Shown one piece after another: positions 8,078 through 17,554 of a stretch of DNA of 35,183 nucleotides (its first letter is position 1; each line of letters begins with the position of its first letter). The notes beneath the pieces were generated by a model. The model saw only the letters and a program-made list of their open reading frames with translations, had not been told where the DNA came from and searched no databases. Source of the stretch: Candidatus Gastranaerophilales bacterium (lineage in GTDB: Bacteria; Cyanobacteriota; Vampirovibrionia; Gastranaerophilales; Gastranaerophilaceae); the NCBI GenBank assembly GCA_944323325.1, contig CALUSF010000005.1:1-35183 (forward strand), in the 5' to 3' direction. Made by a program: the position numbers and the translations under genes.

Positions 8078-8227
8078 TTATAAGAGCAGATAATTGTGTT
8101 CCGTATTTTGGATAAATGTTTTCTTATATGTTTTGGGAATTTCAACACAAATGTATTCGGTTCTTTTTTTTAGTCCGCATAAACCGATTACGGAGTCGTG
8201 TTTGAAAAAGTTTTTGATGAATTGCAT
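8078..8227 (-). CDS. Small unknown protein, 49 aa
   Basis: The minus strand encodes MQFIKNFFKHDSVIGLCGLK, continuing with a basic, aromatic-rich stretch and ending NYLLL before TAA. The support is a very good ribosome site (AAAGGAAG, 5 nt before the ATG), sensible residue composition, and a position in an otherwise empty 330-bp gap. No family is recognised with certainty. One cysteine, many K and Y, no signal peptide or clear membrane segment. It could be a small basic nucleic-acid- or ribosome-associated protein, but nothing in the sequence shows that. Confidence 0.55.
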   Translation of the reverse strand: MQFIKNFFKHDSVIGLCGLKKRTEYICVEIPKTYKKTFIQNTEHNYLLL

Positions 8228-8248
8228 GTTTTCTTCCTTTCCGAGTTA

Positions 8249-8257
8249 TGGTATAAT
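8249..8257 (+). promoter_or_regulatory. Extended -10 promoter of the DUF1858 operon
   Basis: TGGTATAAT (TG-n-TATAAT) lies about 52 nt before the ATG at 8310. It sits in the divergent space opposite the 49-aa ORF. Confidence 0.5.
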
Positions 8258-8309
8258 GACAATATCTTTTTAAGAATCTATTTGTAAAAGTCAAAAGGAG
8301 TATATATTT

Positions 8310-8510
8310 ATGGCAAAAGTAACAAAAGATATGGGGATTTTAGACATAGTACAACAGCATCCGGAATCTATTGCTGTGTTCCAAAAGTACGGGATGGGCT
8401 GCATAGGATGCGCAGCTGCCAGATTTGAAAATCTTGAAGCTGGTGCAAAAGTTCACGGTTTTAATCCTGACGAAATGGTTGACGAAATTAATTCAATAAT
8501 AGGTGCTTAA
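8310..8510 (+). CDS. DUF1858 domain protein
   Basis: A 66-aa protein wholly covered by the DUF1858 domain: MGILDIVQQHPESIAVFQKYGMGCIGCAAARFENLEAGAKVHG. The Cys pair C31-x2-C34 sits in the conserved GMGCxGC motif. The family is common in anaerobes, alone or fused to other domains, and is thought to bind a metal or take part in redox or disulfide chemistry; its exact function is not settled. AAAAGGAG precedes the ATG. It is the first gene of a tight run, 2 nt ahead of the NfeD gene, and has an extended -10 promoter. Confidence 0.85.
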   Translation: MAKVTKDMGILDIVQQHPESIAVFQKYGMGCIGCAAARFENLEAGAKVHGFNPDEMVDEINSIIGA

Positions 8511-8512
8511 AT

Positions 8513-8941
8513 ATGGTCGCGTGGCAGCTTTTGTGTATTATCGGTGTTGCATTTGCAATATTGGAAATATTTACGCCGAGTTTGTTTTTTCTTAATTTTG
8601 CATTAGCAGCATTTATTACTGCTGTACTGTCTTTATATGTAGCAAACAAGTTTGCTTTGGCACTTGCTTTTTTTGTCATGTCATTTCTTTCCTTTTTATT
8701 TTTGCGTCCGCTTATTTTGAGAAGGCATTCAAAAGAGACGGAGACGGGTATTGCCGGAAAGTATATTAATAAAATTGCTAAAGCCGAAGAAGAGATATCG
8801 GAATTTAAGGGTGTAATTTCTATATATGGTGAAAGATGGGATGCTCGCAGTGCAGATAAGTCCGTAATACCTGCAGGATGTGATGTAAAAATTGTTAAAA
8901 ATGACAGTTTAATTATGTATGTTGTTAAATCAGAAAATTAG
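8513..8941 (+). CDS. NfeD-family membrane protein
   Basis: A 142-aa protein with two or three N-terminal membrane segments (about residues 3-25, 28-45 and 48-65) and a C-terminal OB-fold domain (about 75-142) of the NfeD type. Family marks are the opening LLCIIGVAFAILEIFTPS and the KGVISIYGERWDARSAD stretch. Short NfeD proteins occur beside stomatin-like proteins and are thought to work with them in membrane microdomains. That fits here: the SPFH gene starts 11 nt downstream. Confidence 0.88.
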   Translation: MVAWQLLCIIGVAFAILEIFTPSLFFLNFALAAFITAVLSLYVANKFALALAFFVMSFLSFLFLRPLILRRHSKETETGIAGKYINKIAKAEEEISEFKGVISIYGERWDARSADKSVIPAGCDVKIVKNDSLIMYVVKSEN

Positions 8942-15076: not shown

Positions 15077-15141
15077 TTGTTAAGCAATTTGTAACAATTT
15101 TTTGATAAAAGTCAATTTTGAACTTTCATCTGTTTTATATG
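15077..15141 (+). promoter_or_regulatory. HLR1-like promoter B (15159 gene)
   Basis: TTGTTA (15077), TTGTAA (15089) and a weaker TTGATA (15102) are spaced 12-13 bp. Then come GTCAATTT (from 15111) and, 19 nt after GTCAA, TTATATG (TATATG at 15136-15141). This layout is shared with promoters A, C and D. Confidence 0.5.
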
Positions 15142-15158
15142 TTTGGAAGAAGTGTACT

Positions 15159-15746
15159 ATGAATATACAACCGATACAAAATGATATTTCCCTAAGGGGA
15201 AAAAATACACCTTGGAAAAAATTTAAGAACCGTATTGTCCAAAAGGGCATTGATATGTTTCCTGTAAAAACGGCGGACGGTTCGGAAAATGCTATGCGAA
15301 GACGCAGCAGAATAGATGATGAGATTTCCAAACCGGCGCAGAACAGAGGAATTTTAGGTGCAACCGCGCTTATTACCCAGCCGGTAATTGATGCGTGCAA
15401 CCATAAAGTTGATAAAGAAACGCGGCAGGTTTCAGTAAACAGAACTATTGCGAAAATTTTAGCCGGAACACTTGTCGGAATGTTTGTTGTCCGCGGGCCG
15501 GTTTACAAGGCTGTTGTAAAAATGACTGACATAAAAGGGGCAAGACGTATAGACAGGGCGCTTATTCCTAAAAAGTATATGAGTGAAATGGCGCAAAATG
15601 AAAAATTTCTCCGAAATTACAGAAGTGCATTATCAATGAGTATAGCACTTTTAGCAATGTGTATAACAAATTTCTTTTTGGACGCTCCGCTTACAACGTT
15701 TCTGACGAACAGATTTAATGAAAAGACCGGGGGTAAGCATGACTAA
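15159..15746 (+). CDS. Unknown membrane protein (lineage-type N-terminus)
   Basis: A 195-aa protein beginning MNIQPIQNDISLRGK. The open frame extends back to 15102, but that would include the TATA box; GGAAG lies upstream of the ATG at 15159. The first ~85 residues are basic and polar. Two hydrophobic segments follow: IAKILAGTLVGMFVVRG (about 104-122) and ALSMSIALLAMCITNFF (about 160-178). The opening I-x-P-I-x-N...GK resembles a short lead found on many Gastranaerophilales proteins (recollection, not searched). No family is recognised. The stop overlaps the start of the next gene by 8 nt, so the two are translationally coupled and may form a pair. Confidence 0.65.
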   Translation: MNIQPIQNDISLRGKNTPWKKFKNRIVQKGIDMFPVKTADGSENAMRRRSRIDDEISKPAQNRGILGATALITQPVIDACNHKVDKETRQVSVNRTIAKILAGTLVGMFVVRGPVYKAVVKMTDIKGARRIDRALIPKKYMSEMAQNEKFLRNYRSALSMSIALLAMCITNFFLDAPLTTFLTNRFNEKTGGKHD

Positions 15747-16302
15747 TATTTTTAAGAATCCCTTAGCCTGGACATACGAAAATTTCAAAAAAAATACAGC
15801 CAAAATGCTTGTCGTCACCGGTACGATTGGGTGGGGGCTCTCTTCTGCCGCACAGGGACTTGCGGTACTTTTTAATCCTAAAATATCAAAAGAACAAAAA
15901 GGGTATCTTCTTCCTCAAGAGGGTGCGGATGCTATTGTAAATATTGCTTTATTTTTATCGTTTACCAGAGTTGCGCAAAAAGTCTTTTCTAAACTTGCAT
16001 CGACGGGGAAATTTGCACCGAAACAGGTAAGAGAATTTCTTAACAAGAATAAAGAGCTTTACGGTGATAAAGTCGGTAAGCTTTCTCTTGATTTGGATGA
16101 AGTATTAAAGACAGATAATAAATTTCCAAAAGAAGCGTATTATAATTATAAGAATTATATTACGACCGTAGGAACTGTGGGAGCAAGTATTTTAGCCTCA
16201 AACATAGTTACGCCGGTTGTGAGAAACTATACCGCATCATTAATACAGGATAAATATTTAAAATATAAACCTCAAAATCCTTCGGGTAATATGAAAATTT
16301 AG
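15739..16302 (+). CDS. Unknown membrane protein, coupled to the preceding gene
   Basis: A 187-aa protein starting MTNIFKNPLAWTYENFKKN at an ATG inside the ATGACTAA overlap with the previous gene. An in-frame upstream ATG at 15718 also exists. Three hydrophobic segments are visible: MLVVTGTIGWGLSSAAQGLAV (about 21-42), AIVNIALFLSFTRVA (about 66-82) and TVGTVGASILASNIV (about 143-160). The loops are basic. No family is recognised. The overlap, shared size and shared membrane character suggest that it acts with the 15159 product. Confidence 0.65.
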   Translation: MTNIFKNPLAWTYENFKKNTAKMLVVTGTIGWGLSSAAQGLAVLFNPKISKEQKGYLLPQEGADAIVNIALFLSFTRVAQKVFSKLASTGKFAPKQVREFLNKNKELYGDKVGKLSLDLDEVLKTDNKFPKEAYYNYKNYITTVGTVGASILASNIVTPVVRNYTASLIQDKYLKYKPQNPSGNMKI

Positions 16303-16309
16303 AAAAGTA

Positions 16310-16318
16310 TGATATGAT
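16310..16318 (+). promoter_or_regulatory. Extended -10 of a likely leaderless dehydrogenase mRNA
   Basis: TGATATGAT (TG-n-TATGAT) is followed by ACATTT and directly by the ATG at 16325, with no ribosome site. Transcription would start at or next to the A of the start codon. Confidence 0.45.
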
Positions 16319-16324
16319 ACATTT

Positions 16325-17554
16325 ATGGAACGTTACGAATACGGAATTATAGGAGGGGGGCCGGCAGGATATACAGCCGGTATGTGTTTGGCAAAGAACG
16401 GCCATTCCGTAATATTGTTTGAAAAAGATAAGCTCGGAGGAACTTGCCTTAACCGCGGATGTATTCCTACAAAGTCTTTTTTGCACTCGTCCGAAATATA
16501 TGCCCAAATAATGACTTCGGATAAAATCGGGGTTCATATAGATGATTTTTCGTTTGATTTTTCTAAAGTTGTTGAAAAAAAAGATACAACAGTAGAACGT
16601 GTTCGCAAATCCCTTGAACTTGCCGTAAAAAATTCCGGCGTTAAAACAGTGTACGCGAAAGCTTGTATAAAAGATAAAAACACAATTCTTACCGAATCAG
16701 AAGAGTATAAGGTTGATAACATAATTATTGCTTCCGGCTCAAAGCCGAAAGAACTTTCGGGACTTAAGTTTGACGGGGAATTTATTTTGAGTTCGGACGA
16801 TATTTTAAATATAAAAGAATTACCTAAATCCGTATTAATAATAGGTTCCGGTGCAATAGGCCTTGAATGGGCAAGGATTTTTTCAAATTTCGGAGTTGAA
16901 GTCAGTATTGTTGAAGCTGCCGAACATTTGCTGCCGCTTGCCGATACGGAAGTTTCCAAAAGGGTTGAGAGAATTTTTAAGCAGAAAAAAGTCAAATTTT
17001 ATCTGCAAAATACCGTTTCGGAAATTAAGGGCAGAACCGTTATATTAAAAACGGGGGAAGAAATTTCTCCGGATTTTGTATTATCAGCGGTCGGCAGGGA
17101 ACCCGTAAAACCGGATTGCCCCTGTGAAACAATTCTGGGTGATGCGTGCGGCGAAATCCAGCTTGCACACTATGCAATCCATCAGGCGCAGCAGTTTGCA
17201 TCAAAAGTTCCGTTTGATAAAAACCTGACACCTTCCGTTATCTACGGCGAACCGGAAATTGCTTGGGCAGGTCTTCGGGAACAGGATATTGACGAGTCAT
17301 ACAAAAAAGTTATGCTGCCGGTTACGGCTCTTGGAAAAGCCTGGTGCGATGATGCAACCGACGGATTTATTAAACTTATTATCAAAGATAATTTGATATA
17401 CGGAGCTCACATTGTATCCAAAGAAGCTTCCTCTTTAATACATACGGTTCTCGCTTTTATGCAGAACAAAATAAAAATTGAAGATATAAAACAAATATGT
17501 TTTGCCCACCCTACTTATTCGGAAGGCATTTTTGATATTCTTGCCGGGCTTTAG
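16325..17554 (+). CDS. Dihydrolipoamide dehydrogenase-like flavoprotein, compact form
   Basis: A 409-aa FAD/NAD disulfide oxidoreductase. Visible are the FAD motif GGGPAGYTAG (about 9-18), the redox-active pair in GGTCLNRGCIPTK (about 38-50), the NAD motif GSGAIGLEWA, and the C-terminal HPTYSE catalytic His-Glu pair. It is shorter than the ~460-470 aa family. The segment that normally carries V-D-x-x-x-x-T and the A-I-G-D flavin loop is about 25 residues shorter here, reading AVGREPVKPDCPCETILGDAC-G before LAHYA. A GD is kept, and two extra cysteines (CPC) appear. The reading frame is intact, so this looks like a real variant. It may be an E3 of a 2-oxo acid or glycine-cleavage complex, or a related reductase. 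lipA lies 9 kb away. Confidence 0.85.
   Translation: MERYEYGIIGGGPAGYTAGMCLAKNGHSVILFEKDKLGGTCLNRGCIPTKSFLHSSEIYAQIMTSDKIGVHIDDFSFDFSKVVEKKDTTVERVRKSLELAVKNSGVKTVYAKACIKDKNTILTESEEYKVDNIIIASGSKPKELSGLKFDGEFILSSDDILNIKELPKSVLIIGSGAIGLEWARIFSNFGVEVSIVEAAEHLLPLADTEVSKRVERIFKQKKVKFYLQNTVSEIKGRTVILKTGEEISPDFVLSAVGREPVKPDCPCETILGDACGEIQLAHYAIHQAQQFASKVPFDKNLTPSVIYGEPEIAWAGLREQDIDESYKKVMLPVTALGKAWCDDATDGFIKLIIKDNLIYGAHIVSKEASSLIHTVLAFMQNKIKIEDIKQICFAHPTYSEGIFDILAGL

Follow-up and report, generated by a model that had tools for sequence, protein, structure and literature searches.

The two overlapping genes considered here, A and B, are inherited as an inseparable, co-directional and mostly overlapping pair, which in some genomes takes the form of one fused chain, and comparison of their sequence profiles gives good support for A and B being homologous, that is, ancient paralogues. 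We propose as the likely reading that an ancestral membrane subunit with three helices was duplicated and that its two diverged copies, A and B, would function only together. Their complex most likely sits in the membrane. In this way two "hypothetical proteins" become one testable complex, encoded in 190 of the 289 genomes sampled from the class. The pair lies in a stretch of 35,183 nucleotides from a Candidatus Gastranaerophilales bacterium (contig CALUSF010000005.1), a member of a gut-dwelling group related to the cyanobacteria; this stretch is referred to below as the window, and the assembly to which it belongs comprises 1,873,271 bases in 147 contigs.

Layout of the gene pair

Gene A occupies positions 15159..15746 of the + strand and encodes a protein of 195 aa with three hydrophobic helices and the N-terminal lead MNIQPIQNDISLRGK, and gene B follows at 15739..16302 (+) with 187 aa and three main helices. 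The two reading frames share 8 nt (15739..15746, +), so that the sizes and the overlap given in a preliminary description, made from the window alone, are exact. A Shine-Dalgarno-like GGGGGT for B can be read within A at 15729..15734 (+). Overlapping frames are found in 203 of the 208 unique pairs that remained of 261 A-B pairs after removal of repeats, the overlap lengths being approximate because the starts were picked mechanically, and a Shine-Dalgarno-like string precedes the chosen ATG of B in 190/208, counted by a loose pattern with no control.

Searches of family, fold and literature collections

The two proteins had been called unrecognised in the preliminary description, and this holds for the curated libraries. 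In Pfam and NCBIfam the window proteins fall below every curated cut-off, the weak rows (E<1) lying far below it, and a Pfam search with 39 members each of the A and B families likewise returned weak rows and no usable match; a Gal80p_C-like row reached 0.0017 at best in the B set, but for window B it stood at 14.7 bits where the cut-off is 29. PHROGs gave no significant match for A or B (best row E 0.19), PADLOC gave no row up to E 1 for A, B or the fusion, which places none of them in a defence family, and the PDB sequence search held one row at E 0.91 and no usable match. AlphaFold2 yields a confident model of window B with three main helices (pLDDT 89.0, pTM 0.77, 39 sequences) and a fair one of a natural A-B fusion (pLDDT 74.8, pTM 0.67, 33 sequences), whose two halves agree in the order of their helices. 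Foldseek against the PDB found no match with E <0.1 for these models (best 0.12 for the fusion and 1.3 for B), and a structure search of BFVD gave no usable match, the best E being 0.19. VIA-align returned Z values of at most 6.5, which lie inside the "common arrangement" range of that tool; for this reason no known fold is claimed here and none excluded, and the TRAP-gamma and BAR-domain rows were dropped. The A-B pair was not described in the literature searched, in which subscription papers were mostly out of reach, and no paper was found on Gastranaerophilales in combination with a membrane complex. None of the libraries searched offers a counterpart to the A/B family, to the conserved C-terminus of B or to the naturally fused proteins.

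Evidence that A and B are homologous

Compared as profiles of 159 sequences each, A and B score 33.9 in local and 32.0 in global mode, whereas the best of 29 control families, unrelated and taken from the same loci, reaches 19.2 local and 7.2 global against either of them. The corresponding HH-suite probabilities are 57% local and 70% global, or 48% and 76% with 208 sequences, and smaller alignments are weak (36.6 local and 79.8 global with 52 rows; 3.8% with 39 rows); these probabilities being moderate, the controls are given more weight. With the loops removed, none of 60 window-shuffled profiles attains the score of the A and B cores. The alignment sets Q74..N81 of A against Q39..N46 of B and also brings together the starts of helix 2, and 6 of 526 members are weakly matched by the model of the other family.

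Helices, charge and the comparison with paired transporters

The preliminary description had ascribed hydrophobic helices and basic loops to both proteins, and both features are borne out, the segments being marginal in hydrophobicity and the loops net basic. Averaged over the family, A has three segments at about residues 59-77, 97-115 and 156-174, with Kyte-Doolittle means of 0.63, 1.25 and 1.70, and B has three at about 27-45, 57-75 and 143-161, with means of 1.54, 1.05 and 1.68; by this scale they are marginal as a set, and only some of the helices show typical transmembrane hydrophobicity. In both families segments 1 and 2 are joined by a short loop, and a long basic loop precedes segment 3. 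In window A, helix 1 corresponds to residues 62-80 (15342..15398, +) with conserved R63, G67, Q74, P75 and D78, helix 2 to residues 96-116 (15444..15506, +) with conserved T96, K99, G103, T104, G107 and R112, and helix 3 to residues 156-176 (15624..15686, +), which is closed by the motif TNFxxDAPLT. The bias of Lys and Arg, taken as the sum for the N-terminus and loop 2 less the sum for loop 1 and the C-terminus, is +6.6 in A and +4.2 in B. An antiparallel dual topology was considered and found unsupported, since the two proteins do not differ in the sign of this bias. With three spans the C-terminal tail of B, with a net charge of +6.2, would be exterior, in breach of the positive-inside rule.

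There are known cases of obligate heteromers that arose when a membrane subunit was duplicated, and YkkCD is one of the paired SMR transporters. Other paired SMR proteins, EbrAB and MdtIJ, are described as homologous small membrane proteins from adjacent genes that form an obligate heterodimer, with subunits of about 100 residues, four helices and opposite charge biases (PMC9574504). A and B resemble them in being adjacent and homologous, and by analogy may act jointly, but differ in their length of 195 and 187 residues with three hydrophobic segments each, and in sharing the sign of the charge bias. No row for the SMR family appeared in the Pfam searches with the window proteins and 39 members each.

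This likeness raises the alternative of a small transporter made of two paired proteins, in which A and B would form a heterodimer that serves as carrier or channel after the manner of paired SMR exporters and conserved polar helix residues would line the substrate path. Adjacent paralogous genes forming an obligate pair are the very arrangement of the paired SMR proteins (PMC9574504), and the helices of A and B carry, inside or at their ends, Q, N, D, K, R and T residues that are conserved. Three hydrophobic helices instead of four, a bias of Lys and Arg that keeps one sign from A to B and a neighbourhood without any constant gene all speak against it, and we consider it unlikely, if the most serious of the alternatives. 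Taken more broadly, a structural or permeability-modulating membrane module, to which we give slightly less than an even chance, is likelier for the pair than a role as a solute transporter, which is possible at best.

Hydropathy bears on a further alternative, in which A and B would form a helical heteromer that is soluble or peripheral, resting on the membrane or some other anionic surface without spanning it. For transmembrane helices the usual hydropathy threshold is 1.6, and four of the six helices are marginal by it (<1.6), the loops are net basic throughout, and the middling structural matches (Z <=6.5) include BAR-domain proteins, possibly as a mere common arrangement. However, helix 3 of A and of B and helix 1 of B reach family averages of 1.5-1.7, and helix 3 of B holds on average 0.0 basic and 0.4 acidic residues. 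A non-spanning heteromer is accordingly judged rather improbable, and the location in the membrane is preferred.

A putative Lys99(A)-Glu61(B) contact

Two charged residues near the starts of helix 2 may connect the two chains, namely Lys99 of A (codon at 15453..15455, +) and Glu61 of B, which lies in the conserved PQE (codon at 15919..15921, +). Position 99 of A is K or R in 202 of the 208 pairs, and position 61 of B is E in 200. In the alignment of A with B the two sites stand one helix turn apart, A99 being opposite Asp64 of B and Thr96 of A opposite B61. All 6 pairs that lack K99 also lack E61, and they represent two loss events in two clades: a clade of four genomes within the genus of the window has Val for K99 together with Ala for E61, and a distant clade has Gln for K99 together with Gly for E61. 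Under a simple branch-length model, the chance of these losses coinciding on the same branches is about 2e-4. In a third clade (L075, L080), E61 is replaced by Thr while K99 is retained and Thr96 of A has become Ala.

Among column pairs between A and B, A99-B61 ranks 8th and A96-B61 19th by coupling. The 25th best A-B coupling is 0.92, compared with 0.53-0.60 in five shuffled pairings, a control that overstates the signal because shuffling also erases shared ancestry, and the coupling of A99-B61 itself (1.10) equals the top single score of one of the five shuffles (1.10). For these two reasons the loss events are weighted over the coupling scores. Taken together, the two charged residues are likely to form a contact, and they offer a concrete pair for testing by charge swap.

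Distribution and linkage of the pair

Across the class, the A profile and the B profile each match 190 of 289 genomes, and a comparison by eye of the rows listed shows the same genomes for both. Co-occurrence had been named in the preliminary description as the check on a group-specific membrane complex of two components, with independent occurrence of the genes in related genomes counting against it, and above the cut-off given below A and B are never apart in the loci read. The proposal as a whole is strengthened by this pairing together with the fusions, the homology of A and B, the correlated loss of charge and the restricted distribution, the membrane being the part that is deduced.

The pair is present in nearly all sampled genomes of the family to which the window belongs. 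A first sample, made up of 57 relatives, yielded B in 44 genomes and A in 43, the sole mismatch being a genome (G002) whose B gene is truncated by a contig end (match 8191-8523 on a contig of 8523 nt). A sample of 339 genomes from the phylum holds A in 151, comprising the family of the window and one genome of a sister family, and the 289 genomes of the class sample add two further families with A and B. A scan for an A motif in one genome per species, over 84,980 species, gave 212 matches, 210 of which are relatives; the best 80 of these 210 comprise 77 adjacent A-B pairs and 3 fusions of A and B in a single protein, with lengths of 454, 467 and 481 aa. The relatives are mostly deposited as metagenome-assembled genomes of Candidatus Gastranaerophilales, Melainabacteria or plain "bacterium", and a few bear the labels Clostridiaceae, Heliobacteriaceae, Fusobacterium or Eubacteriales, which are given here as deposited.

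The loci read, each of which had been retrieved through a match to A or B, hold 261 A and 261 B genes that form 261 adjacent pairs, with no orphan above the cut-off of E 1e-5. Not included in this count are loci already represented by another view (L001, L002, L032-L049 and L051-L060) and fusions present a second time (L082, L083, L099 and L100). The cut-off also excludes L098 (1165-2493 of this locus, from G240; E 2.7e-4), which encodes a protein of 442 aa with a weak A-like stretch, VDQENRKIAATKSIASG, and has no neighbouring B; this protein may be a larger and evolutionarily older relative of the A/B family. The same protein contains the lead-like strings NVSFGG and NIAFKG.

More than one copy of the pair may be present. 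A second, diverged A-B pair lies in the genome of the window itself (L062, contig C11), and one other genome (G034) has up to five matches to B. In three members of the genus (L063, L065 and L066) a gene identified by eye as glycogen-phosphorylase-like lies 3' of the second pair.

Linkage by itself is no proof of contact, and overlapping genes are common in operons, so that A and B could be merely co-inherited and co-expressed and form no physical complex. Three natural fusions, the paralogy of the two chains, the correlated loss of charge and the retention of the pair through duplication (L062 in the same genome and up to five B in G034) argue against this reading, which we hold to be very improbable. 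A toxin-antitoxin or phage-derived module, which small, overlapping and in some genomes multicopy genes might suggest, is hardly credible for a pair that is near-universal in its family within the sample, whose chains are homologous to each other, that has no PADLOC row and no significant PHROGs row, and for which a motif scan of viral contigs gave 6 motif matches and 0 confirmed relatives, members that lack the motif being beyond the reach of such a scan.

The proposed complex

Under the preferred reading of one duplicated membrane subunit, ribosomes that end A would restart on B, as the overlap and the Shine-Dalgarno-like string inside A lead us to infer, and the two chains would be produced side by side and in similar amounts. 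A and B would then fold co-translationally into a pseudo-twofold heteromer of the inner membrane, in which Lys99(A)-Glu61(B) would bring the beginning of helix 2 in A into contact with its counterpart in B. The basic tails would stay outside the bundle, the N-terminal tail of A bearing the lead-like motif, and the end of the B tail, [Leu/Met]-[Lys/Arg]-[Ile/Val], would probably dock another protein, such as a PDZ-like or quality-control reader.

The tails and the N-terminal lead

B ends in the tail SGNMKI (16282..16299, +), which closes with a conserved [LMIFV][KR][IVL]-COOH, and the same pattern terminates 186 of 208 B proteins. In the narrower form [LMIF][KR][IV] it ends 73 of 77 B proteins as against 3 of 676 neighbouring ORFs, where 5.1 would be expected; the latter count led us to reject a C-terminal tag used throughout the lineage. 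The end of B is best explained as a putative docking or quality-control tag.

A lineage-type lead at the N-terminus of A had been part of the preliminary description, and of this claim the presence of the lead in A stands, with 36 of 40 members of the genus and 55 of 168 others carrying it, while its standing as a lineage signal does not. The pattern used is loose, matching the N-terminus of 250 of 991 other ORFs and an internal stretch of 208 of 874, and so fails to separate the lead from the background. The linkers of two fusions (L082 and L083) carry the lead-like KISFSG or NVSFGN between their A and B halves, and the lead may therefore be a binding motif that works inside a chain too.

A third, MTP18-like family

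Known members of the MTP18 family (mitochondrial fission process 1, PF10558) are mitochondrial inner-membrane proteins that affect the integrity or the fission of the membrane, and MTP18 is not known to occur as a gene pair. A weak viral row of BFVD, annotated as "Mitochondrial fission process protein 1" (rank 10, E 1.4), prompted a search with PF10558 in 12 genomes, which matched a third gene and not the loci of A or B. PF10558 gave no row for window A or B, nor was it among the families shown for the 39 members each, and A and B stay below the Pfam gathering cut-off for MTP18 of 25 bits. Of eight proteins encoded by the third gene, three pass this cut-off (30.5, 28.4 and 30.9 bits), one of them from the genome of the window. 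The gene in this genome encodes 289 aa (L301:865-1731, contig C45), the others being L299, L300 and L302-L306. A profile built from the eight proteins matches 119 of the 289 class genomes, and the gene is also found in families that have no A or B in the sample (f3 and f14).

Compared end to end, the core of the MTP18-like proteins and the core of B score 25.8 local and 20.5 global against control maxima of 19.7 and 6.7, the 29 controls not having been cut at their loops as the two cores were, and among 60 shuffles one beats the local score and none the global. The full-length MTP18-like profile scores 20.0 against A and 18.3 against B, within the range of the controls (up to 22.4), and A shows no similarity to the MTP18-like profile above the controls, either in full length or as a core. 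A and B share with MTP18 the order of helix 1, a short polar loop, helix 2, an insert and a helix 3 with a near-terminal proline, but differ from it in having no PF10558 row.

On these comparisons of sequence, we regard it as a tentative and rather doubtful reading that A and B represent a bacterial heteromeric branch of the MTP18 superfamily. If true, Gastranaerophilales would hold two branches of MTP18, a single-gene form and the split pair A/B, and the latter would jointly tune the permeability or the shape of the inner membrane; should the lead hold, bacteria would also offer a model for this mitochondrial membrane protein, about which little is understood. Bacterial relatives of MTP18 are unmentioned in the portions of the literature that the search covered, and for MTP18 in combination with cyanobacteria neither term stood in a title or abstract among the matches listed.

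Genomic neighbourhood and upstream control region

Around 162 A loci (not deduplicated), with gene names assigned by eye, A is directly preceded by a co-oriented glgC-like gene in 50, a glycogen-phosphorylase-like gene lies downstream in 3, a flavoprotein gene lies downstream in 19, and a convergent anti-sigma-like gene is found in 70. A connection of the pair with glycogen is thereby possible; a role in it is not adopted here because no neighbour holds across families, the 162 loci showing no constant partner gene.

Four elements can be read in the region upstream of the pair (15078..15154, +). A direct repeat TGTTAA/TGTAAC begins at 15078 and 15090 (+), with a period of 12 bases and a spacing of 6, and is followed by the block AGTCAATTTT (15110-15119, +), which has the form AG[TGC]CAATTT in 32 of 38 orthologues of the genus, by the -10-like TGTTTTATA (15131-15139, +), with a -10-like element (TTTTATA) in 31 of 38, and by the Shine-Dalgarno sequence of A, GGAAGAAGTG (15145-15154, +). 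The repeat pattern TGTWAV-N4/5-TGTAAV occurs in 28 of 38 upstream regions of the genus as against 6 of 1900 shuffles, although the repeat of the window, with its spacing of 6, falls outside this pattern; repeat, AGTCAATTTT block and -10-like element are found together in 20 of 38. Since the repeat, the block, the -10-like element and the Shine-Dalgarno sequence are kept across many members of the genus, the A-B pair probably forms its own transcription unit.

The HLR1 consensus of RpaB type consists of two TTACA-type repeats ten bases apart, and the direct repeat upstream of A in the genus is, as we take it, reminiscent of cyanobacterial RpaB sites. The preliminary description had spoken of an HLR1-like promoter, and the direct repeat itself is found in 28 of 38 orthologues of the genus, with starts 10 or 11 bases apart, whereas the period of 12 in the window departs from the ten-base consensus.

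The flavoprotein gene (16325-17554) lies downstream of B and had been credited with its own leaderless promoter. A -10-like TG-A-TATGAT (16310-16318) is indeed present, and its end six bases before the ATG is the reason why the flavoprotein transcript may be leaderless, but a stricter form of the pattern is absent from the window and occurs in 8 of 40 members of the genus.
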